From NCBI GenBank assembly GCA_025924715.1, contig JAICHV010000001.1, positions 1-64,000 of the forward strand: a stretch of 64,000 nt of DNA. The letters are read 5' to 3'. Shown piece after piece: positions 8,795 to 29,404 of this stretch. The stretch is from Alphaproteobacteria bacterium. Its GTDB lineage: Bacteria; Pseudomonadota; Alphaproteobacteria; Micropepsales; Micropepsaceae. Numbering within the stretch: position 1 is the first letter of the stretch; every line of letters starts with the position of its first letter. The notes under the pieces are model-generated. The model saw nothing but the letters and a program-made list of their open reading frames with translations, was not told the origin of the DNA and did not search any database. Both the position numbers and the translations under genes were made by a program.

Positions 8795-10750
8795 TTATTC
8801 ACCGGCCACGGGCGGCATCATTTCGGAATAGGGCATTTTGCCGGAGAATTCCGGCACCACCAATTTCAGCACCCGGAACAGCCGATCCTGGTCGAAATTC
8901 TCGGCGGCCTTGCTCATTTCGGCGACCTGGTTGCGCAAGATGGAAAGGGGCGCAGTGCGTGGGCTGACCACCATCACGCCATCTGTCTTGCCGGTCGCCA
9001 GCTGCTCCTGGTGGTGGATCAGTTCTTCGTGCAGTTTCTCGCCCGGCCTCAGTCCGATGAATTGGATCTTCACATCAACATCGGGGCGCTTGCCCGACAG
9101 ACGGATCATCTGCCGCGCCAGATCGGCGATCTTGATCGGCTTTCCCATGTCCAAGACATGCACCATGCCGCGGGCGTCGGACTTTTTTGCGCCCGCGACG
9201 GCCGCCTGCAGCACCAACGACACCGCTTCCGGAATGGTCATGAAATAGCGCGAGGTTTCCGCGTGGGTAACGGTGAGCGGTCCACCCGCGTCCAGCTGGC
9301 GCTGGAATAGCGGAATGACCGACCCGGCCGACCCCAGGACATTGCCAAAGCGCACGATCGTGAAGTGGGTCGGCCCACCCTGAGCGTCCATCGCCTGGCA
9401 ATAGGCCTCGGCACAGCGTTTGCTGGCGCCCATGACGTTGTGGGGATTGACCGCCTTGTCCGTGGAAATCAGGACCATGTTGCCGACGCCGTATTGGGCG
9501 CAGGCATCGGCGATATTCTGCGTGCCCAGAACATTCGTCCGAATGCCTTCGACCGGATGGGCTTCGACCAGCGGCACGTGTTTGAGCGCGGCGGCATGAA
9601 AGACGATGTCGGGACATTCCCGCACGAACCATTGATTGACGTTGGTGCGGTCGCGGACATCGCACAGCGCATCCTGGCGCTCCAGCGTGGGATGGCGCTC
9701 GCCAAGTTCCTTTTCGATCGAATAGAGATTGAATTCGGTATTATCGAGCAGGATGAGTTTTTTGGGGCCCAGATCGGCGATCTGGCGGACCAGTTCGGAT
9801 CCGATCGAGCCGCCCGCGCCGGTCACCAACACCCGGCGGTTCGAGATCATGGCGCGAATGGCCTCGCGGTCGAGAACCGCTTGCGGACGACCCAAAAGGT
9901 CGGCGATGGCAACCGCGCGGACCGTGACGTGATTGCTGTCGGCGCCCGACCCGATATTGGTCAGCCGCGGCAGTCGGCCCAAAGTGAGCCCATTGCGCGT
10001 GGCGTATTCCAAATAGGTCGAGACCAGATTTTCGTCGGCATTGTCATCCGCCAGCACCAGGCGTTGCGGACGGATGCCGCGTTGACGCAGATAGACCAGC
10101 GCGTCGGCGATGTTCTTGGTCGCACCCAATACCGGGATGCCGTGCACGACATGGGCATGTTGGGCGGTGTCGTCTGTCAAGATTCCCGAAACATAATAGG
10201 GAACCTCTCTGCCCCGGTTCAATTCCCGCACAAACGGTTCGATGCGGCGTATGTCGCCGGCGACCAGAATGGGAACGGTGTTCGGCTGGATTTTCCGCTT
10301 GCCGCCGGCGAGAAGCGGCGCCGGCGTGCGGCTGTCGGCCCAGGCACGGCACACCAGGCGCGGCGCGCCAATAAAAGCCACCATCAAGAACCAGGCAAAG
10401 ACCGGCGTGGAACGCGGCAAGAGATTGGCGCGCACGCTCAAGAACGCGATCGGTAAAAAGCACAAAACGGTGAGGGTAGTCACGCGCAGGATGGACATGA
10501 AATCCAGCAGCGAGGTGTAACGCCAGATGCTGCGATGCACGCCGTTGCGCAAGGTGAAGATCGCGGCGAGCAGCGTGAAGATCGTGAGGTACACAAATTC
10601 GACATGCTTGCCCGGCAACTGAACCAGAGCCAGCCCCGCGCCAAACGAAAAATTCAGCGCCAGGAAAAAGGCGGCGCCCGACGCGCAGATATCGTATAGA
10701 AAACTCGCCAGTTTCCGCCAAAAGGCGGATGTAGAAAGTGCTGGTCCCAT
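8795..10750 (-). CDS. pglF: UDP-HexNAc 4,6-dehydratase, membrane-bound (PglF/WbpM/CapD family)
   Basis: The 651-residue protein has four N-terminal transmembrane segments (residues 15-130), a CoA-binding-like Rossmann domain (about 150-270) and a C-terminal extended SDR domain. The SDR domain carries the NAD motif TGAGGSIGSELVRQI and the modified active site STDKAVNPHNVMGASKR, in which Met replaces the usual Tyr, as in WbpM/PglF/FlaA1. These enzymes make UDP-4-keto-6-deoxy-GlcNAc, the first step toward bacillosamine and related sugars. The upstream aminotransferase, with the PglC- and PglD-like genes near 24 kb, supports that pathway. The ATG at 10750 follows GGGGGC; a TTG three codons upstream is less likely. 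The symbol follows the Campylobacter analogue. Confidence 0.87.
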   Translation of the reverse strand: MGPALSTSAFWRKLASFLYDICASGAAFFLALNFSFGAGLALVQLPGKHVEFVYLTIFTLLAAIFTLRNGVHRSIWRYTSLLDFMSILRVTTLTVLCFLPIAFLSVRANLLPRSTPVFAWFLMVAFIGAPRLVCRAWADSRTPAPLLAGGKRKIQPNTVPILVAGDIRRIEPFVRELNRGREVPYYVSGILTDDTAQHAHVVHGIPVLGATKNIADALVYLRQRGIRPQRLVLADDNADENLVSTYLEYATRNGLTLGRLPRLTNIGSGADSNHVTVRAVAIADLLGRPQAVLDREAIRAMISNRRVLVTGAGGSIGSELVRQIADLGPKKLILLDNTEFNLYSIEKELGERHPTLERQDALCDVRDRTNVNQWFVRECPDIVFHAAALKHVPLVEAHPVEGIRTNVLGTQNIADACAQYGVGNMVLISTDKAVNPHNVMGASKRCAEAYCQAMDAQGGPTHFTIVRFGNVLGSAGSVIPLFQRQLDAGGPLTVTHAETSRYFMTIPEAVSLVLQAAVAGAKKSDARGMVHVLDMGKPIKIADLARQMIRLSGKRPDVDVKIQFIGLRPGEKLHEELIHHQEQLATGKTDGVMVVSPRTAPLSILRNQVAEMSKAAENFDQDRLFRVLKLVVPEFSGKMPYSEMMPPVAGE

Positions 10751-10893
10751 GGCCCCCAAGCCCCGGTGTCAGCAGCCCCATTCGACAGTACGGAGACCGC
10801 TGAGCCCAAATAGTGTAAACAACTTTAACAGAGGGCGGGGCATTGCCAAACAAGATTGCAATTCTTCGTTAATTTCTAACTCAATATATAGGG

Positions 10894-12039
10894 CTAACGT
10901 CTAGATGTTGCGGTCACATGTATTCCTGCGACTAGTTCTGCAACTCTCACAACATCGTCGTCGGACATCTGGGTGCCGGATGGCAGGCACAAGCCCTCCC
11001 GAAACAGCTGTTCGCAGACCTTGCCGCCCACATATCTGGCGTCGCGGAAAACCGGCTGCATATGCATCGGCTTCCACACCGGGCGCGATTCGATATTGGC
11101 GGCTTCCAATTCAAGACGAACGGTTTCGCGGTCCGCTCCGAACTGTTTCTCGTCAAGCAGAATCACGGTCAACCATCGCGTAGCGCGGCCATAGGGCGCT
11201 TCGGGCATGAACGAAAGGCCGGGCAGATGTTCGAGCCGATCCCGATAGATTTCAAAGACCCGCCGGCGGCGCGCCACGCGCTCATCGATCACTTCCAACT
11301 GTCCCCGCCCGATCGCCGCGGAAATATTGCTCATGCGGTAGTTAAAACCGATCTCGGTATGCTCGTAATGCACCACCGGCTCGCGGGCCTGTGTCGCCAA
11401 GTAACGCGCGCGTTCGATTATTTTGGCGTCGTGCGATGCCAGGATGCCGCCGCCCGAGGTCGTGATGATTTTGTTGCCGTTAAAGGAAAAGATGGCCGCG
11501 AAAGCGCCATTGCCGGCATGGCGGCCCTTGTAGGAGGCGCCAAGCGCCTCGGCAGAATCGCAGAGCACCGGCACGTCATATTCCCGGCAACTGGCGACGA
11601 TGGGATCGAGATCGCAGGATTGTCCGTAGAGGTCGGTCGGTATGACCAGCTTGGGCAACCGTCCCTGCCCGGCAGCAATCCGCAATTCCTGCGCAAGCAA
11701 ATCCGGGTCCAAAGTCCAGCTGCCGGGTGCAACGTCCAGAAAAACCGGCCGCAATCCATCATGGATGGTGGGCCCAATACTTCCCACAAAAGTGAGACTA
11801 GGCGCCCAAATTTCATCGCCACGATCGAGGTCGAGGGATTTGAGCGCCAGATGAGTCGCCGCCGTGCCCGACGAAACCGCCGCGACATGGGGAATGCCCG
11901 TGTACGCCGCGAATTCGCGTTCGAAAGCATCGAGCATGGGTCCGACCGGAGCGACGTAGTTGGAGTCGAATGCCTGCTCCACATAAACGCGTTCGCGTCC
12001 CGACATGTGCGGAGGAGAGAGAAACAAGCGGGGCGGCAT
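10894..12039 (-). CDS. DegT/DnrJ/EryC1 PLP-dependent sugar aminotransferase (PglE/EpsN-like)
   Basis: The 381-residue product is of full family length. It shows the cofactor-binding SSGTAATHLAL and the PLP-lysine region FNGNKIITTSGGG (Lys near residue 190). Such enzymes transfer an amino group from glutamate to the 4-keto group of UDP-4-keto-6-deoxy-GlcNAc, the product of the neighbouring dehydratase. It precedes the dehydratase on the same strand with a 143-base A+T-rich gap, so that gene may also have its own promoter. Assignment to the bacillosamine branch rather than another 4-amino sugar is inferred from context. Confidence 0.87.
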   Translation of the reverse strand: MPPRLFLSPPHMSGRERVYVEQAFDSNYVAPVGPMLDAFEREFAAYTGIPHVAAVSSGTAATHLALKSLDLDRGDEIWAPSLTFVGSIGPTIHDGLRPVFLDVAPGSWTLDPDLLAQELRIAAGQGRLPKLVIPTDLYGQSCDLDPIVASCREYDVPVLCDSAEALGASYKGRHAGNGAFAAIFSFNGNKIITTSGGGILASHDAKIIERARYLATQAREPVVHYEHTEIGFNYRMSNISAAIGRGQLEVIDERVARRRRVFEIYRDRLEHLPGLSFMPEAPYGRATRWLTVILLDEKQFGADRETVRLELEAANIESRPVWKPMHMQPVFRDARYVGGKVCEQLFREGLCLPSGTQMSDDDVVRVAELVAGIHVTATSRR

Positions 12040-13753: not shown

Positions 13754-15685
13754 TCATCTTGCCTGAAGCCAAGCTTCGAACATGAGTATCGGCCATAACC
13801 GGACGTGCCGGTTCATTTTGCCGGAAAGATGCTGGTTCCAAAGCTGACTAACGAGGTGCGGGTCGAAATAACCGCTAGCTTTGATATGATCTGGAGCCAG
13901 CAGCGCTTCTGCCCAGTCTCGCAACGGTCCGCGCAACCAGTCCTCGATCGGAATTCCAAAACCGGCCTTGGGCCGATCCATCAGTTGCTGAGGAACATGC
14001 CGATAGACCAATTTGCGTATCACTCTTTTGCCCAGCCCCTCCCCCACCTTCATTGACAAGGGCAATCGCCATGCAAATTCGGCGACTCGGGGATCGAGAA
14101 AGGGCACACGAGTCTCCAGGCTCACAGCCATGGAAGCGCGATCCACTTTAGTCAGGATATCGCCCGGCAGATACGTAATCGTATCCAAGTACATCATCTG
14201 TTCGATGAAGCCTATGCGCGATAAAACAGGGTCATTGAAAGGGAGGATGCTCTCCGTACTCCGTATCAGAACATCTCCAGGACTATCCCAGGCCGAAATC
14301 AGACTCCTGTATCCACCTATGAGCGTGGACGCCCGTATAAGATTCGCGAGTTTCAAAGCGCGATCGCCTACTAGGCCAGGCCGTCTCCCCAACGTAAGTA
14401 ATCTATAGAGCGCGTCCCATTTCTGAGCTCCCACTGACTGAATTGCGTTGGCACTCAACTTTCTTATTCCATGTGGCCATTTGGCGATTTTCGGAAGTAT
14501 TCGCTCAGAAATGAAGTAGCGCTGATATCCCCCGAACAACTCGTCGCCCCCGTCCCCCGAAAGAGCCACCGTCACGTGCTGCTTTGCCATTTGGGAAACA
14601 AGGAAGGTTGGTATTTGCGAACTGTCGGCAAATGGCTCGTCGTAAAGCGTCGGCAAGCGTGGAATTACATCCATCGCCTCTCGCGCGGTGACGTATAATT
14701 CTGTGTGATCGGTCCCAAGATGCCGCGCCACTTCCCTCGCAAAAGGCGCTTCATCATAACCATGGACCTGAAATCCAATGGTGAAGGTCCGCACTGGTCG
14801 CGCCGACTGCTTCTGCATCATCGCCACTATGGCAGTGGAATCAAATCCACCTGAGAGAAAGGCACCCAGCGGGACATCAGCCTCCATTCGTAGGCCCACA
14901 GAGTCGGACAACAGGGACTCGAAGGCATTTACCGCCTCATCTTCGCTAATATGGAGGGACGAAGCCAAGCCGCGAGACACCATGTCGGCAGATGACCAAT
15001 AATGGTCGTACTCGTAGTCCAGTTGCCCAGGTCGGAGTCGAACAATCTGGCCAGGCTCAAGCTTTTTGAAATCCTGGTAAATACAATAAGGGGCGGGAAT
15101 ATATACGTGTCGTAGGAGAAAATTTATGGCGTCTCTATCGATGGCGCCAGTCCAGGCGGGATGTACCCGCAGAGCCTTCAGCTCGGATCCAAACAGGAAG
15201 TGCTGTTTGGTTCTTCCGTAGTACAGAGGCTTCTCGCCGAAACGGTCGATGGCCAGTTCGAGCGTTCGCTCCTGCGCATCCCAAAGAGCAAGCGCGAACA
15301 TTCCGTTGGTTTGCTCAAGGGCCTTCTTGAGGCCAAAGGCCGCAATTGCAGCCAGCAGGACTTCAGTATCGGAATGGCCTCGCCAGACCGGTGCATCACC
15401 TTGGGCTTCAAGAATCGCCCGAATTGCTTTGTGATTATAGATTTCGCCGTTGAACACCAAGGTATAGCGACCACTTGCCGATACCATAGGCTGATGCCCC
15501 GCCGGAGAAAGGTCGACAATGGCGAGCCGGCGCATTCCAAGCCCGATACCGAGTTCGGCATCGCACCATTGGCCGTCATCGTCAGGCCCTCTGTGGACGA
15601 TCGCGTCCGTCATCGCGCGCAAATTGGCGAGCATCTGTTCGCGGTGCACGCCTGCTGGCGAAAATACGCCTACTATGCCGCACAT
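13754..15685 (-). CDS. asnB: Asparagine synthase (glutamine-hydrolysing)-type amidotransferase
   Basis: The 643-residue product has an N-terminal class II glutaminase domain beginning MCGIVGVF (catalytic Cys2) with RGPDDDG and NGEIYNH. The C-terminal synthetase domain has the PP-loop SGGFDSTA. In polysaccharide clusters such AsnB paralogues often amidate a hexuronic acid rather than aspartate, as proposed for WbpS of Pseudomonas O-antigen synthesis; the UDP-HexNAc dehydrogenase at 22.4 kb would supply the acid. The ATG at 15685 has a GGGGGG-type ribosome-binding site and overlaps the upstream glycosyltransferase stop by 13 bases. Plain asparagine synthesis remains possible. Confidence 0.9.
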   Translation of the reverse strand: MCGIVGVFSPAGVHREQMLANLRAMTDAIVHRGPDDDGQWCDAELGIGLGMRRLAIVDLSPAGHQPMVSASGRYTLVFNGEIYNHKAIRAILEAQGDAPVWRGHSDTEVLLAAIAAFGLKKALEQTNGMFALALWDAQERTLELAIDRFGEKPLYYGRTKQHFLFGSELKALRVHPAWTGAIDRDAINFLLRHVYIPAPYCIYQDFKKLEPGQIVRLRPGQLDYEYDHYWSSADMVSRGLASSLHISEDEAVNAFESLLSDSVGLRMEADVPLGAFLSGGFDSTAIVAMMQKQSARPVRTFTIGFQVHGYDEAPFAREVARHLGTDHTELYVTAREAMDVIPRLPTLYDEPFADSSQIPTFLVSQMAKQHVTVALSGDGGDELFGGYQRYFISERILPKIAKWPHGIRKLSANAIQSVGAQKWDALYRLLTLGRRPGLVGDRALKLANLIRASTLIGGYRSLISAWDSPGDVLIRSTESILPFNDPVLSRIGFIEQMMYLDTITYLPGDILTKVDRASMAVSLETRVPFLDPRVAEFAWRLPLSMKVGEGLGKRVIRKLVYRHVPQQLMDRPKAGFGIPIEDWLRGPLRDWAEALLAPDHIKASGYFDPHLVSQLWNQHLSGKMNRHVRLWPILMFEAWLQAR

Positions 15686-22359: not shown

Positions 22360-23630
<1,271 letters not shown>

Positions 23631-23646
<16 letters not shown>

Positions 23647-24329
23647 GGCACGTCCAATGCCGATTTAGCGCCGGGGATATGCGGAGCGACCCCGTCAGCG
23701 GCCTCATTTTTCAGAGCACCGAACGGCGGCATCGTCGCATGCCCGGGCGCGGAAATACCCTTGCGCGCAACCACACGGGCCAGCGTTAGAAATAGGATTT
23801 TCAGGTCCAGCCACAGAGTCCGGTGATCAACATACCACACGTCGAGCTTGAACTTTTCTTCCCAGCTAAGGGCGTTGCGGCCGTTGACCTGTGCCCATCC
23901 CGTTATGCCGGGCCGCACCTGATGTCGCCGCATCTGTTCGGGTGAATATCGGGGCAGATATTCCATCAGCAGCGGACGAGGCCCGACCAAGCTCATCTCG
24001 CCCCTTACCACATTCCATAATTCCGGGAGTTCATCGAGACTGTAAGAACGCAGGAAACGCCCAAAAGACGTCAAGCGTTGATCGTCTGGCAACACTTTAC
24101 CACGCTTGTCCCGGCCGTCGCGCATAGTGCGAAATTTCAATATCGCGAATGGCACAGCCCTCAAGCCGGGCCTTTGCTGACGAAAAAAGATTGGCGATCC
24201 CAGCAGTACTCTGACCAAAACTGCGGTTGTAATAATGATAGGCGACGCCACGGCCAGCGCCATCAGGGCCATTACAATATCTAATACCCTTTTCATCGAA
24301 GCGTCGGCCCTGAAAAAGTCCCCATTCAA
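23631..24329 (-). CDS. pglC: Initiating phosphoglycosyltransferase, PglC-like
   Basis: The 232-residue monotopic transferase has one re-entrant membrane helix (about residues 16-38). The catalytic core carries FAILKFRTM, SLDELPELWNVVRGEMSLVG, GPRPLL and RPGITGWAQVNGRN. Unlike WbaP-type enzymes it has no extra membrane domain, and its C-terminal segment RKGISAPGHATM mirrors PglC. It transfers a sugar phosphate, likely diacetylbacillosamine-1-P, to undecaprenyl phosphate. A TTG at 24329 overlaps the stop of the acyltransferase gene (TTGA); an ATG at 24296 would start directly at MKRVLDIV and is a real alternative. Confidence 0.88.
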
Positions 24330-24937
24330 AGCTTCGGGAGCAGGGTCTGGTGATCCTTAACGATGCGCAGCACGGTACAGCCCATACCCACCAATGCATC
24401 TGTACCAATCTTCGCGCCTTGAAGGACGCGCGCGCCCGCTCCAATCAAACTGTCATCGCCAATCGTGGCGCCACCGCCAATAAATGCGAGAGGGGACAAT
24501 GTCACGTTGTCACCCACGATCGTATCATGTCCCACCATCGCATTCGTGTTGAGCAACGCAAATCGACCAATTCGCGCGTCCTCTGCAATTATCGCGGCGT
24601 GGGCGACATAGCTCCCCGGCCCGATAACAACACTTTTGTGAACGATCGCATGGGTCGAAATTAGCGTGGGTGAAAGAAAACCGTTTTCGTCCAACCACCG
24701 GATAATTTCCTTCCGGGCAGCGATGTTACGGCGATTCACGCCCCCGATCGCCAAAGCGACGCCGTCATATTTGCCCTTATTGACTAACAATTCCGGCAAG
24801 TAACCAAGATAGTTAAAACGTGTGTTGCCCTTGGTATCGGCGTAGTAGTCTGCGACTTGGTAACCATTCGCCTCCGCCACCTCGGCGACCTCCTTGGCGA
24901 ACCCGCCTCCCCCAATTAGCGCCAGCGATCGCATCAT
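24326..24937 (-). CDS. pglD: NeuD/PglD-family sugar O/N-acyltransferase
   Basis: The 203-residue protein has an N-terminal Rossmann-like PglD domain (LALIGGGGFAKEVAEVAEANG). A left-handed beta-helix follows (residues about 95-195) with hexapeptide repeats and the conserved active-site His in NAMVGHDTIVGD. PglD acetylates UDP-4-amino sugars with acetyl-CoA to give UDP-diacetylbacillosamine; NeuD homologues use sialic-acid-type substrates. GGGAGA precedes the ATG by four bases. It is coupled to the PglC-like gene and divergent from the ACP cassette. Whether it accepts the ACP-bound acyl groups made next door is an open question. Confidence 0.85.
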   Translation of the reverse strand: MMRSLALIGGGGFAKEVAEVAEANGYQVADYYADTKGNTRFNYLGYLPELLVNKGKYDGVALAIGGVNRRNIAARKEIIRWLDENGFLSPTLISTHAIVHKSVVIGPGSYVAHAAIIAEDARIGRFALLNTNAMVGHDTIVGDNVTLSPLAFIGGGATIGDDSLIGAGARVLQGAKIGTDALVGMGCTVLRIVKDHQTLLPKL

Positions 24938-25175: not shown

Positions 25176-25406
25176 ATGCACCGTAGCGAATTTTTGCCAT
25201 TGCTTGATGAATTGTTTGAGCTCGATTCCGGAACGTTGAAGGGCAGCGAGGATCTTGATGCAATCTGCTGGGATTCCGTGCGCGCGATCGAGTTCATTGT
25301 GTTGGTGAATGAAAAGTTTGGGCTTGAGGTCGTGCCGAATTCGTTAATGAAAGCCAAAACAGTTGACGATCTTATCGCCCTAGCAGGCGATAAGATTGAT
25401 TTGTGA
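25176..25406 (+). CDS. Acyl carrier protein
   Basis: The product is a 76-residue acidic protein with the length and helix pattern of a discrete ACP. The 4'-phosphopantetheine attachment site is the Ser in ICWDSVRAIEF (Ser34), a WDS variant of the usual DSL. AAGGA precedes the ATG by about eight bases. Being the first gene of a cassette with two ketosynthases and a reductase, it is a pathway-dedicated carrier rather than the fatty-acid AcpP, which normally has DSLD and lies beside fabF. Confidence 0.87.
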   Translation: MHRSEFLPLLDELFELDSGTLKGSEDLDAICWDSVRAIEFIVLVNEKFGLEVVPNSLMKAKTVDDLIALAGDKIDL

Positions 25407-25415
25407 GTTGATCCT

Positions 25416-26516
25416 ATGGCGCAAACTGAGATTTCCAATTTGCGCATCGCCGGTATCGCTAGTGCCGTGCCATCGTCTACCCGAGATATTTCCGAGATTA
25501 TCGCGGCCTTTGGCGAGGAGGCAGCAAAGAAGATCGCCGACATGAGCGGCGTTAGGGTGCGCCATACAGTTCCCGACGACGGCTCACTATGTACGTCTGA
25601 CCTGTGCGCCGCTGCAGCTGGCAAGCTGCTTCAAGAACTTGGTTGGAACCCGGAGAGCATTGACGGTCTGATATTTGTATCCCAAACACCAGATTATATT
25701 TTACCGGCGACCTCTTGTGTCCTTCAGGCACGACTGGGTCTATCTAAAGGCTGTGCCGCGTTTGACGTGAATTTGGGTTGCTCGGGATATGTCTACGGAT
25801 TGTGGCTAGCGGCACAAATGCTCGCGGCGGGCGGATGTAAGCGGATATTGTTGCTGGCAGGCGACACGGTAAGCCGAATTGCAGGTACGGAGGACCGGGC
25901 AGTAGCCCCCCTGTTCGGCGACGCCGGTACTGCAACCGCGCTTGAACGCGCGCCCAACACGCCGCCCATGTGGTTTGACCTGGGAACCGACGGTAGGGGC
26001 TGGGATAAGTTGATTGTACCCGCGGGCGGGTTTCGCAATCCGCGCACCGCCAAAACTGCCAGAAGAAGGGTACGCGACGACGGCAATACGCGCTCTGACG
26101 AAGAGCTGTTCATGAGCGGCGCGGATATTTTCACGTTTACTTTGCGCGAAGTACCTGCGCTGATCCAAAACGCCCTGAAGGAGAGCGGTTGGGACGCCTC
26201 TGAGGTTAGCGCCTATGTAATGCATCAGGCCAATCGCTTTATGTTGCAGCAGATCAGCAAAAAGGCGAAATTGGCGCCTGAACGGGTCGTGGTCGCACTG
26301 GAAGAGTTCGGTAACACCAGTTCGGCGTCTATTCCGCTTGCGATTACTTCACGATTGGCGCCGTCCTTGCGCGAAAACACGCTGAAGGTCGTGATTGCAG
26401 GCTTCGGGGTTGGTTATTCTTGGGGTTCTGCCTGTCTGACCTTGGGGCCCATTGTTGTACCCGATTTGCTCATTGTCGAACCGCGGGAACGGGTGAATGA
26501 TCTGCAACCCGCTTGA
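25416..26516 (+). CDS. Ketoacyl-ACP synthase III (FabH-like), first copy
   Basis: The 366-residue thiolase-fold enzyme has an intact Cys-His-Asn triad: Cys122 in DVNLGCSGYVYG, His in YVMHQANRF and Asn in EEFGNTSSASIPLA. KASIII enzymes condense an acyl-CoA starter with malonyl-ACP and release CO2. The C-terminus carries about 30 residues beyond the usual end, overlapping the next gene by 20 bases. The spacing of nine bases from the ACP gene implies one transcript. It is probably not the housekeeping FabH, since a second copy lies two genes on. Confidence 0.9.
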   Translation: MAQTEISNLRIAGIASAVPSSTRDISEIIAAFGEEAAKKIADMSGVRVRHTVPDDGSLCTSDLCAAAAGKLLQELGWNPESIDGLIFVSQTPDYILPATSCVLQARLGLSKGCAAFDVNLGCSGYVYGLWLAAQMLAAGGCKRILLLAGDTVSRIAGTEDRAVAPLFGDAGTATALERAPNTPPMWFDLGTDGRGWDKLIVPAGGFRNPRTAKTARRRVRDDGNTRSDEELFMSGADIFTFTLREVPALIQNALKESGWDASEVSAYVMHQANRFMLQQISKKAKLAPERVVVALEEFGNTSSASIPLAITSRLAPSLRENTLKVVIAGFGVGYSWGSACLTLGPIVVPDLLIVEPRERVNDLQPA

Positions 26517-27255
26517 CCTCACCGGCAAAGCAATCTTGGTGACAGGTGCGTCGTCCGGCATCGGGCGCGAGACGGCGATCTATTTGGCGGGCCTAGGAGC
26601 GCGCATTGTGCTGACAGGCCGCGACCTCACGCGACTTGAAGCTGTCCACGCCAAACTGGCCGGCCAGCACTTAATGGAAGCCTTCGAACTGTCATCCAGC
26701 GATGAAATTGCCCCCTGGATGAAGTCTATCGCCGGGCGTACAGGTCCTCTACACGGCGTAGTTCACAGCGCGGGTGTCAGCGCCACGCGGCCGCTCCGGA
26801 CCATTTCCCAAAAGGAAATCAATTCGCTGATGGCGATCAACGTCAATGCCGCCTTTGGCTTGGCAAAGGGGTTTCGGCAAAAAGGCGTGTTCGCTCCCGG
26901 AGGCGGGATCGTCTTGCTGTCCTCGGTGATGGGCTTGGTGGGGCAACCTGGAAATTCGCTTTATTCTGCCAGCAAAGGCGCGCTTGTTTCCCTGACGAAA
27001 AGTTTGGCGCTGGAGTTGGCACGAGAGGATATTCGTGTGAATTGTATCGCTCCTGCCATGGTAATGACGGAGATGGGTGAACATCTGAAAGCAACACTTC
27101 CTCCCGAAAACTGGAACGCTGTGGAAGCCATGCATCCGCTGGGTGTCGGTCGCCCTGAGGACGTCGCAGCTGCGGTTGCTTTTCTGCTCGCGCCGACGGG
27201 CCGGTGGATTACCGGTACTACACTGGTGGTCGACGGCGGCTATACGGCAGCCTAA
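26497..27255 (+). CDS. SDR-family oxidoreductase, FabG-like
   Basis: The 252-residue classical SDR has the NAD(P)-binding motif TGASSGIG (residues 16-23), the N-A-G equivalent HSAGV and the catalytic Ser142/143, Tyr156 and Lys160 (YSASK). FabG-type members reduce 3-ketoacyl-ACP to 3-hydroxyacyl-ACP, which fits its place between two ketosynthase genes. It overlaps the first ketosynthase by 20 bases, and the next start follows its stop codon with no gap. Confidence 0.88.
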   Translation: MICNPLDLTGKAILVTGASSGIGRETAIYLAGLGARIVLTGRDLTRLEAVHAKLAGQHLMEAFELSSSDEIAPWMKSIAGRTGPLHGVVHSAGVSATRPLRTISQKEINSLMAINVNAAFGLAKGFRQKGVFAPGGGIVLLSSVMGLVGQPGNSLYSASKGALVSLTKSLALELAREDIRVNCIAPAMVMTEMGEHLKATLPPENWNAVEAMHPLGVGRPEDVAAAVAFLLAPTGRWITGTTLVVDGGYTAA

Positions 27256-28290
27256 ATGATGAGGGCGGCGATCACGGCCATCGAATTCCACCTTCCTGAC
27301 CAAGTGCTGACCAATGACGATTTGGCCGCAGAATTCCCCGAATGGCCGATTGGCAAGATTTTCGACAAGACGGGAATTGAAGCACGGCACATCGCCGCGC
27401 CGGGCGAAACAGCATCGGATCTTGCGCGGCAAGCTGCCTTGAAATTATTTGCCAGTGGGGCGGCCAAGGCGGACGAGATTGACTTCCTTATTCTCTGCAC
27501 GCAGGCGCCGGACTATTTTCTTCCCACGACAGCCTGCATTCTCCAGGACGCGTTGGGAATCCCCACCACGACCGGCGCCTTGGACATCAACTTGGGTTGC
27601 TCCGGGTTTGTCTACGGCCTTGGCCTAGCCAAGGCCCTCGTGGAAACCGGGCAAGCCCGAGCTGTCTTGTTGTTGACCGCGGATACCTATAGTCGATTCA
27701 TTCACCCAGGCGATAAGTCGGTTCGCTCTCTGTTTGGGGATGGCGCAGCCGCGACGCTGATCCGCGCAGTGCCGCGCAGTCTTCAGCCAATAGATGCGTT
27801 GATCTACGGCACTGATGGCAAAGGCGCAAAAAATTTGATCGTCACGACCGGCGGGGCGCGTCAGGCAAGAACGCCCGAAACCGCTTCAGTGTCCCAGGAT
27901 TCGAATGGCAATCTAAGGGCACCTGACAACCTCTATATGAATGGGCAGGAAATTTTCACTTTTACTCTGCGGGCTGTTCCGAAGCTGGTGAGAGACGTCC
28001 TGGCAAAAGCAGACGTTAGACTGGATTCGGTCTCTCATTTCGTTATGCATCAAGCCAACGCCTATATGCTGGAAGCAATCCGCAAAAAACTCGAAATTCC
28101 GACAGAGCGCTTCTGCGTCATGGTCCGCCATTGCGGCAACACAGTCTCCTCCACCATTCCCATAGCGCTAAAAACACTTGTGCAGAGCGGAAAGCTCAAG
28201 GCTGGCGAAACTGTCCTGATAGCCGGCTTCGGCGTGGGATACTCGTGGGCCGGCGCGATGTTGATTTGGGACGAGGATTTTCATGGTTGA
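27256..28290 (+). CDS. Ketoacyl-ACP synthase III (FabH-like), second copy
   Basis: The 344-residue enzyme has Cys115 (DINLGCSGFVYGLG), His (FVMHQANAYM) and Asn (RHCGNTVSSTIPIA), so the triad is intact. It is clearly homologous to the first copy but quite diverged, suggesting a different starter, acceptor or acyl-transfer role. The ATG follows the reductase stop directly, and its end overlaps the Rieske gene by eight bases. Some KASIII homologues act as acyltransferases or esterases rather than condensing enzymes. Confidence 0.9.
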   Translation: MMRAAITAIEFHLPDQVLTNDDLAAEFPEWPIGKIFDKTGIEARHIAAPGETASDLARQAALKLFASGAAKADEIDFLILCTQAPDYFLPTTACILQDALGIPTTTGALDINLGCSGFVYGLGLAKALVETGQARAVLLLTADTYSRFIHPGDKSVRSLFGDGAAATLIRAVPRSLQPIDALIYGTDGKGAKNLIVTTGGARQARTPETASVSQDSNGNLRAPDNLYMNGQEIFTFTLRAVPKLVRDVLAKADVRLDSVSHFVMHQANAYMLEAIRKKLEIPTERFCVMVRHCGNTVSSTIPIALKTLVQSGKLKAGETVLIAGFGVGYSWAGAMLIWDEDFHG

Positions 28291-29404
28291 ATCTAGGCCT
28301 CTCGGAATCAAGCCCGAGCAATATTTCTCAGAAAGCTGGTTCTCCGCAGAGCAATCCCTGTTGGAGAATACCCTTTGGAACTTCGCCGGACTGGTGCGCG
28401 ATGTGGCAGGGGACAATGATTTCCTAACAGTCCCAATTGGAAGCAAGTCTGTCATCCTCCAGAATTTCAAAGGGGAAATACGGGCGTTCGACAATGTTTG
28501 CGCCCATCGCTTCTCGCGCATTCGCGCCTGCGAGAGGGGGAATGGCTTGCTGCGCTGTCCCTATCATTCCTGGGTCTACAATTCCGAAGGCGTCCCGGTC
28601 AGCATTCCGTCCAATGAGAATGCTTTTGGTTTCGATGCGGTGGCCCGGGCTCAACACTCTCTAAAACGCTGGCGTGTTGAACAGTGCGGCGAGTTGCTCT
28701 TTGTCTGCGCCGACCACGCCGCGCGTAACCTGCGTAGCTTTCTCGGGGACATGTTCGAAGAGTTGGAGGCGCTTTCCAATTGCCTTGGAAACGAAATGGA
28801 CGTTTTCAGTTTTGAATACGAAGCAAACTGGAAAATCTGCGTCGAAAACACGCTTGACGAATACCACGCCACCTTCGTACATCCAACCACTTTCCGCCCG
28901 ATGCTGTCTGGTGGGTTCACGTACGGTTATGATCGCCTTCTTTCTAAAGTCGAAGCGAGCGTTACCGACGAGACTCAAAAAAGCTGGGGTCGATTAGAGA
29001 AGTTTTTCGCCGCTCGGCCTCTAAAAACTGATACGTATTTTCACTATGCCGTATTTCCCCTCACCACCTTGGCATCGACGTTTGGCGTAAATTTTTCTCT
29101 GCAGACTTTTGTGCCCCAATCCCCTCGCCGGACCCTATTCAAAACACGCCTATTTCTTAGTAAATTCGAAGACGGCCGCCTGCCTCCCGCGGGGGTTGTA
29201 AAAGCGTTGGGTCAATCGGCGGCAGAGTTCAATCGTACGGTGTTTTTGGAAGACAAATTCATCTGCGAGCAGGTCCAGCTAGGCCTGCAGCAGAATTCGG
29301 GGCTCACAGGCGCATTGGGCCATTATGAGCAACGTATAAGTCACTTCCATCAGGCTCTGGATAGAATCCATGCTGGCGCTTGGGGCGCGAGAACTAGCGG
29401 ATAA
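28283..29404 (+). CDS. Rieske non-heme iron oxygenase, alpha-subunit type
   Basis: The 373-residue protein has an N-terminal Rieske [2Fe-2S] domain with Cys73-x-His75 and Cys92-x2-His95 (CPYHSW). The C-terminal mononuclear-iron domain has Asn189, Glu193, His195 and His200 in ENTLDEYHATFVH, and a late Asp in FLEDKF. Such enzymes hydroxylate or desaturate substrates using electrons from a reductase. No reductase or ferredoxin gene is nearby, so electrons must come from elsewhere. It is the last gene of the ACP cassette, which suggests an acyl or sugar substrate; this is inference. Confidence 0.88.
   Translation: MVESRPLGIKPEQYFSESWFSAEQSLLENTLWNFAGLVRDVAGDNDFLTVPIGSKSVILQNFKGEIRAFDNVCAHRFSRIRACERGNGLLRCPYHSWVYNSEGVPVSIPSNENAFGFDAVARAQHSLKRWRVEQCGELLFVCADHAARNLRSFLGDMFEELEALSNCLGNEMDVFSFEYEANWKICVENTLDEYHATFVHPTTFRPMLSGGFTYGYDRLLSKVEASVTDETQKSWGRLEKFFAARPLKTDTYFHYAVFPLTTLASTFGVNFSLQTFVPQSPRRTLFKTRLFLSKFEDGRLPPAGVVKALGQSAAEFNRTVFLEDKFICEQVQLGLQQNSGLTGALGHYEQRISHFHQALDRIHAGAWGARTSG

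Follow-up and report, generated by a model that had tools for sequence, protein, structure and literature searches.

A set of five genes within a polysaccharide locus of an alphaproteobacterium raises the question of why a Rieske oxygenase should be encoded together with enzymes of short acyl chain synthesis, and on what it acts. The locus lies in a stretch of 64,000 nucleotides (hereafter the window), positions 1 to 64,000 of contig JAICHV010000001.1 (assembly GCA_025924715.1; family Micropepsaceae). The genes, the intact key residues of their products, their linkage and their recurrence in other bacteria were directly observed. The cassette likely serves to assemble a short hydroxylated acyl chain on a dedicated acyl carrier protein (ACP), with oxidation of this chain by the Rieske enzyme and its amide linkage to the 4-amino group of a bacillosamine-type sugar, uridine diphosphate (UDP)-QuiNAc4N. 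The part consisting of ketoacyl-ACP synthase III (KASIII), ACP, short-chain reductase (SDR) and the acyltransferase PglD is of a known kind, and the recurrent Rieske add-on is the new part.

The Cassette and Its Proteins

The five genes are arranged head to tail at 25176-29404 in the order ACP, KASIII-1, SDR, KASIII-2 and Rieske:

25176..25406, plus strand: dedicated ACP, 76 amino acids, ATG start at 25176; Pfam PP-binding 27.3 bits (cut-off 20.8)
25416..26516, plus strand: KASIII-1; ACP_syn_III and ACP_syn_III_C (85.5 bits); best PDB match 4efi_A, E 1.6e-91
26497..27255, plus strand: FabG-like SDR, 252 amino acids; adh_short_C2 181 bits
27256..28290, plus strand: KASIII-2; ACP_syn_III and ACP_syn_III_C (106 bits); NF006829 282 bits (cut-off 249); best PDB match 3gwa_A, E 5.4e-127
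28283..29404, plus strand: Rieske non-haem iron oxygenase alpha subunit, 373 amino acids; Rieske 47.5 bits, Ring_hydroxyl_A 76.2 bits

In the Pfam scan, each of the five open reading frames (ORFs) scored above the curated cut-off for its named family. This agrees with an earlier note on this DNA, which had described five plus-strand genes of these kinds and no malonyl transferase, KASII or acyltransferase among them. The junctions along the cassette are +9, -20, 0 and -8 bases, and hence the genes look like a single operon; the gaps or overlaps of at most nine bases given in the note hold for +9, 0 and -8, whereas the KASIII-1/SDR overlap is 20 bases. A PglD-type gene had also been placed divergently beside the cassette, and it was found on the minus strand with 238 bp in between. 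The GC content of the cassette genes ranges from 0.468 to 0.585 vs. 0.603 in the window outside 18-30 kb.

The key residues of the encoded proteins are intact, with roles in the KASIII, SDR and Rieske proteins as expected for the FabH, FabG and Rieske families. The ACP carries its phosphopantetheine serine, Ser34, in the motif WDSV, and W32, D33 and S34 are invariant across seven aligned ACPs. The Cys-His-Asn triad, already claimed to be intact, is present in KASIII-1 (Cys122/His270/Asn300) as well as in KASIII-2 (Cys115/His265/Asn295), and the SDR retains Ser143/Tyr156/Lys160. The Rieske protein contains cluster ligands C73/H75/C92/H95, an iron site H195/H200/D324 and the bridging acid D192, individual roles which we take over from CntA and NDO; C73, H75, C92, H95, H195, H200 and D324 are invariant in a 31-row alignment of Rieske proteins (A1).

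On the Rieske protein, Pfam matched the Rieske and Ring_hydroxyl_A families, with VanA_C as an overlapping match. The best NCBIfam model was that of the glycine betaine monooxygenase GbcA (NF058607), but a GbcA-type identity was rejected with a score of 86.3 bits vs. a cut-off of 670. The AlphaFold2 model (pLDDT 93.2) has as its nearest solved fold CntA (TMq 0.77, Foldseek E 2.2e-23, ~20% identity), a monooxygenase crystallised with carnitine and gamma-butyrobetaine. The predicted fold suits a small aliphatic substrate and proves nothing in this respect, since terephthalate and other aromatic-ring enzymes rank closely in the same fold list.

Linkage of the Rieske Gene to Acyl Genes

Relatives of the Rieske protein were gathered by sequence alone (A1, a genome scan, and 398 same-phylum and 385 same-class genomes), and their neighbours were inspected afterwards. 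The collection comprised 112 Rieske loci, i.e., the best 80 of the genome scan and 32 from the top of two further searches. One locus (L031), in which the Rieske gene is split into two ORFs of less than 300 amino acids, was left out, giving 111 loci. They were classed by score to A1 as close (≥300 bits), intermediate (200-300 bits) or distant (<200 bits); A1 was picked by sequence only but includes some of the scored proteins or their near relatives, the scores of which are raised. A further 16 loci with less than 8 kb of flanking sequence in sum were left out, and 12 close, 12 intermediate and 71 distant loci were retained. Neighbouring genes were labelled by blastp to the window genes with author-set cut-offs.

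A KASIII gene was found within 8 kb of the Rieske gene in 10 of the 12 close loci, 4 of the 12 intermediate loci and 1 of the 71 distant loci (Fisher p 2.9e-10, close vs. distant, for loci that are not fully independent, as several genomes, e.g., G371, G739, G809 and G635, supply two). Regardless of flank, the figures were 10/13, 4/14 and 1/84, respectively. The SDR was near the Rieske gene in 10, 4 and 2 of the close, intermediate and distant loci, and the ACP in 7, 2 and 0. On a tree of 94 rows, of which 59 carried a label and 35 did not, the KASIII label required 4 changes as compared to a shuffled mean of 16.3, and none of 500 shuffles was as low; the 19 rows labelled KAS include the window itself. 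Rieske genes of the window type are thus linked to KASIII and SDR genes beyond chance.

The closest relatives of the individual proteins were also compared by contig, covering the top 120 hits per search. The Rieske relative P0004 (53%), the KASIII-2 relative P0123 (65%) and the KASIII-1 relative P0242 (61%) share their source, and each is listed with a contig of 172,192 bases. Similarly, P0003 (Rieske, 56%) and P0122 (KASIII-2, 73%) are both listed with a contig of 22,997 bases, and P0029 and P0257 with one of 16,281 bases. Equal contig size and source are circumstantial and fit the Rieske-KASIII linkage. No such contig match with a KASIII was seen for the closest Rieske relative, P0002 (60%), among these 120 hits per search. 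KASIII-2-type matches at E 1e-80 were present in 3 of the 398 same-phylum genomes, the own genome included. Of the other two, one (L164) has a Rieske gene, and the other (L179), whose contig starts 232 bp before the KASIII-2 gene, showed no Rieske gene within the 15 kb read. The use of KASIII-2 alone as a marker of glycan loci was dropped, this being a very large family (8000 candidates scored) that is found elsewhere too.

Related Loci in Other Bacteria

Flavobacterium sp. CF136 (L006) harbors the order pglC-kas-acp-kas-Rieske-sdr-pglD-pglE, with pglF further on, adjoining glycosyltransferase genes and a Wzy_C-family gene. A locus from the phylum of the window (L164) shows kas-acp-kas-Rieske-sdr-pglD-like, along with aminotransferase and flagellin-like matches. 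Plasmid pBGF3 of Burkholderia glumae (L188) carries genes for flagellin, FliD, VioA, KASIII, ACP, a split KASIII, SDR, an acetyltransferase and a Rieske protein; this second KASIII is split over two frames (L188:17417-18518, NZ_DQ996271.1), owing to decay or a sequencing error. On p3 of Azospirillum brasilense Sp7 (L189), pseG, SDR, KASIII, Rieske, SDR, GNAT, glycosyltransferase and pseI genes were found, and A. lipoferum 4B (L190) has Rieske, GNAT, SDR, KASIII, neuB and formyltransferase genes in ~10 kb. Loci of a similar sort occur in Acetobacter lambici (L008) and Paraburkholderia monticola (L011). In two further Azospirillum loci, the nearest KASIII is ~7 kb from the Rieske gene (L193), or there is none in the 25 kb read, with KASIII H28 of the same record just beyond (L192). 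The earlier note had proposed a search for the five-gene order in other genomes; it is the gene set that proved to be conserved, and the exact order did not.

A set of 23 loci was picked by eye after their context had been seen, with reference proteins partly from the same loci, so that the following counts are descriptive only. A DegT aminotransferase was present in 12/23 loci and PseG/PseI/NeuB in 10/23. A GNAT or hexapeptide acyltransferase match occurred in 21/23, as did a nucleotide-sugar, glycosyltransferase or flagellin match, which was absent in L147 (a 3.4 kb contig) and L155. The sugar pathway thus varies among the loci (bacillosamine, viosamine or nonulosonate), while KASIII, SDR and acyltransferase are mostly kept. 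The earlier note had held that finding such cassettes mainly outside glycan loci would refute its hypothesis. The hypothesis withstood this test as far as it could be run: within this eye-picked set, 18 of the 19 loci with both Rieske and KASIII have a pgl, vio, pse/neu, dehydratase, flagellin or glycosyltransferase match, L146 by a weak dehydratase match only and L155 by none.

Some loci deviate in their oxygenase content. Two Rieske genes per locus were observed at L145:8889-11086, L155:1007-3899 and L011:6881-12547, an arrangement that would permit two oxidations of one chain. A split second Rieske homologue, with adjacent or overlapping ORFs for the cluster and the catalytic domain, lies beside SDR and GNAT genes; split alpha subunits were noted in five loci (L193:15633-17248, L007, L146, L148 and L031). 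A weak PhyH-like gene (2-oxoglutarate oxygenase family) is located at L150:11646-12581 (23.5 bits, cut-off 22), and similar matches occur in L010, L146, L190, L192 and L193. Perhaps these genes serve a further oxidation of the chain or sugar.

Comparison With Known Systems

In Flavobacterium psychrophilum, wfpC and wfpE (KAS), wfpD (ACP), wfpF (reductase) and wfpG (PglD homologue) have been assigned to the R1 group, a 3,5-dihydroxyhexanoyl amide on N4 of Qui2NAc4N, the gene assignment being a prediction of those authors (PMC6519341); the dihydroxyhexanoyl group has the (3S,5S) configuration (PMC3210612). The likeness to the window extends over two KAS, an ACP specific to the O-polysaccharide, a ketoacyl reductase and a PglD homologue, together with pglE, pglF and a PglC homologue, whereas the window adds a Rieske gene, and the main text of PMC6519341 mentions no oxygenase or hydroxylase. 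The Flavobacterium L006 locus, in turn, looks like the F. psychrophilum set plus a Rieske gene. In the viosamine island of Pseudomonas syringae, vioS (one KASIII), vioR, acp and vioB go with a 3-hydroxybutanoyl group, and the modified sugar is missing from a vioR mutant (PMC3927599). This island, with vioA, likewise combines ACP, KASIII, reductase and N-acyltransferase for a hydroxyacyl group on a 4-amino-4,6-dideoxy sugar, but it has a single KASIII and uses deoxythymidine diphosphate-viosamine instead of UDP-bacillosamine, and the term Rieske does not occur in the paper (PMC3927599). The comparison of the window with F. psychrophilum was made by gene content only.

CMAH and NamH act on cytidine monophosphate- and UDP-linked sugars, respectively. 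Both are Rieske-domain enzymes that convert N-acetyl to N-glycolyl on an amino sugar (PMC8227644, PMC10050696). They contain UlaG/beta-lactamase-like and Rieske domains (PMC8227644, PMC10050696), in contrast to the Rieske and Ring_hydroxyl_A domains of the window enzyme; Pfam detected no UlaG/beta-lactamase-like domain in the latter, and membership in their family was rejected on domain make-up. The likeness is therefore functional only.

The two hydroxyacyl systems bear out the view that similar ACP/KASIII/reductase sets are tied to hydroxyacyl groups on amino sugars (PMC6519341, PMC3927599). The Rieske gene had been called a non-standard addition. In keeping with this, open-access literature searches, judged from their listings, returned no report of a Rieske gene with such a cassette, but the combination recurs in at least two phyla. 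The hypothesis that the cassette makes and hydroxylates a short acyl group for an amino sugar is supported by recurrence in glycan loci and by the F. psychrophilum precedent, with oxidation of the chain by the Rieske enzyme as its conjectural step. It is sharpened by two points beyond the earlier note, namely, pglE and pglF homologues in the locus and the oxygenase-free set of similar kind in F. psychrophilum (PMC6519341).

As a separate observation, the flagellin glycan of Burkholderia pseudomallei, reported as 291.1 Da (PMC3958885, section 4.5), equals the residue mass calculated for Qui4N plus dihydroxyhexanoyl plus one oxygen (291.132).

The Surrounding Locus and a Proposed Pathway

The polysaccharide locus contains the following genes besides the cassette:

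24326..24937, minus strand: PglD-type hexapeptide N-acyltransferase; Hexapep 72.5 bits, PglD_N 34.2 bits; TIGR03570 165.9 (cut-off 160.8)
23631..24329, minus strand: PglC-type phosphoglycosyl transferase; Bac_transf 221.7 bits; 51% identity to the Flavobacterium L006 homologue
10894..12039, minus strand: PglE-type DegT/DnrJ aminotransferase; PF01041 298.8 bits; 44% identity to the Flavobacterium L006 aminotransferase
8795..10759, minus strand: PglF-type nucleotide-sugar 4,6-dehydratase; Polysacc_synt_2 371 bits; 37% identity to the L006 homologue
22360..23646, plus strand: nucleotide-sugar 6-dehydrogenase; TIGR03026 380 bits (cut-off 189.8)

The PglE- and PglF-type genes are 13-16 kb upstream of the cassette. 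With homologues of pglF, pglE, pglD and pglC in the locus, a UDP-4-amino sugar, an N-acyltransferase and a phosphoglycosyl transferase would be at hand; an N-acyltransferase and a 4-amino-sugar pathway thus accompany the cassette, as in the vio/wfp-type cassettes.

We infer every chemical step of the pathway, as well as the chain length and the carbon oxidised. One KASIII would condense an acetyl starter with malonyl-ACP, and the SDR would reduce the resulting ketone. The second KASIII would add two more carbons and the reduction would be repeated, giving 3,5-dihydroxyhexanoyl-ACP by analogy with F. psychrophilum. The Rieske enzyme may then insert one oxygen into the chain, either while this is ACP-bound or once it has been transferred. 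PglD would move the chain from the ACP to the UDP-amino sugar that PglF and PglE supply, and PglC would start the repeat unit on undecaprenyl phosphate. One condensation per KASIII, as suggested by the two published cases, would lead to a dihydroxylated C6 acid prior to the Rieske step. Both the C6 length and the choice of oxidised carbon are conjectural, and a C4-C6 hydroxyacyl chain before oxidation is the best reading. Calculated residue masses are 316.163 for QuiNAc4N plus dihydroxyhexanoyl and 332.158 with an additional oxygen, and 272.137 and 288.132, respectively, for the hydroxybutanoyl forms.

Substrate of the Rieske Enzyme

Since KASIII, SDR and acyltransferase are mostly retained whether the sugar pathway is of bacillosamine, viosamine or nonulosonate type, the evidence points to the acyl chain, and not to one sugar ring, as the Rieske substrate. 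It is unlikely that KASIII, ACP and SDR make the acyl group while the target of the Rieske enzyme is the sugar ring or a different sugar in the repeat unit, the linkage then arising through shared glycan loci. Rieske enzymes do oxidise many substrates, and the close locus L149 has PseI/NeuB-type, glycosyltransferase and ACP matches but, over the 20 kb read (~10 kb on each side), neither a KASIII nor an SDR match. However, KASIII and SDR were each near the Rieske gene in 10 of 12 close loci, in L006 and the window the Rieske gene directly adjoins acyl genes or overlaps with them, and no sugar pathway is constant, as reflected in the DegT and PseG/PseI/NeuB counts of the eye-picked set.

It also appears quite unlikely that the enzyme acts on the acyl chain by desaturation, ketone formation or ring closure in place of hydroxylation. 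Rieske oxygenases do perform such chemistry, and the type of reaction cannot be read from the sequence; nothing specific opposes this explanation, although the Rieske-domain enzymes CMAH and NamH are precedents for N-acyl hydroxylation (PMC8227644, PMC10050696). Production of a free lipid or small metabolite by five genes merely placed in the locus is very improbable, as the acyltransferase and sugar-side matches each occur in 21 of the 23 eye-picked loci, even though KASIII relatives are found outside glycan loci (e.g., next to genes for radical SAM and thioester reductase proteins on a plasmid of Deinococcus sp. KNUC1210) and L147 and L155 have no sugar-pathway, glycosyltransferase or flagellin match.

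Several observations weigh against the preferred reading, i.e., an acyl chain oxidised by the Rieske enzyme and linked to the amino sugar. The close loci L148 and L149 have no KASIII within 8 kb, L148 having one 8.0 kb away, and L147, a contig of 3.4 kb, has none on it; the same holds within 8 kb for 8 of the 12 intermediate loci. L150, which has a KASIII, clusters on the tree with five KASIII-less rows, and the distant locus L048 has a KASIII nearby. The Flavobacterium Rieske protein is only 37% identical to that of the window, a large distance. Only one KASIII was present in the stretch read of L008, L009 and L011, so that the C6 length need not be general; with one KASIII in some loci or two Rieske genes in others, the products must differ between loci. 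The five-gene cassette includes no gene for an electron-transfer reductase, and PF00970 reductase was not found in the host genome, which is 92.9% complete and shows eight Fer2-type domain matches. Finally, we know of no product for any Rieske-bearing cassette.

To a broader proposal we would give an even chance: that these enzymes form a diverse Rieske group specialised for short ACP- or sugar-bound hydroxyacyl chains of surface glycans. The group would be an add-on to vio/wfp cassettes, apparently passed between phyla and sugar pathways and giving an extra oxygen (e.g., trihydroxyhexanoyl amides), and a functional, not ancestral, counterpart of CMAH/NamH.

Significance

The genes for the N-acyl group, beside wzy, contribute to lipopolysaccharide antigenicity in F. 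psychrophilum (PMC6519341), and in P. syringae, a plant pathogen, the flagellin glycan includes such a group (PMC3927599). If the proposal is true, an oxygen-adding gene would be a compact means of varying surface antigens that can be read from genomes. It suggests a way of varying bacterial surface sugars that is undescribed within the open-access literature searched, and provides a mass shift (+16) for which glycan chemists can search. Sequence sources label some of the Rieske relatives as aromatic ring-hydroxylating dioxygenase or choline monooxygenase, and a definite function is hereby proposed for proteins so labelled.

Host Genome and Other Features of the Locus

The host genome is a draft metagenome-assembled genome of 3.7 Mb in 153 contigs with 5.8% contamination. 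At the cut-offs used, searches for the Rieske gene, for KASIII-2 and for PglD each found 1 of the 96 genomes of the window's family, namely the own genome (the order-level search gave only the same 96 genomes). Hence, the locus was probably acquired.

The locus also contains Wzc/Wza-type, Wzx-type (MurJ family) and glycosyltransferase genes. Its 6-dehydrogenase scored 435.5 against the TviB model NF011729, under the cut-off of 592. An asparagine-synthase-like amidotransferase of 643 amino acids is encoded inside the locus at 13754-15685 on the minus strand. A search of phages with KASIII-1 gave eight records with 27-31% identity.

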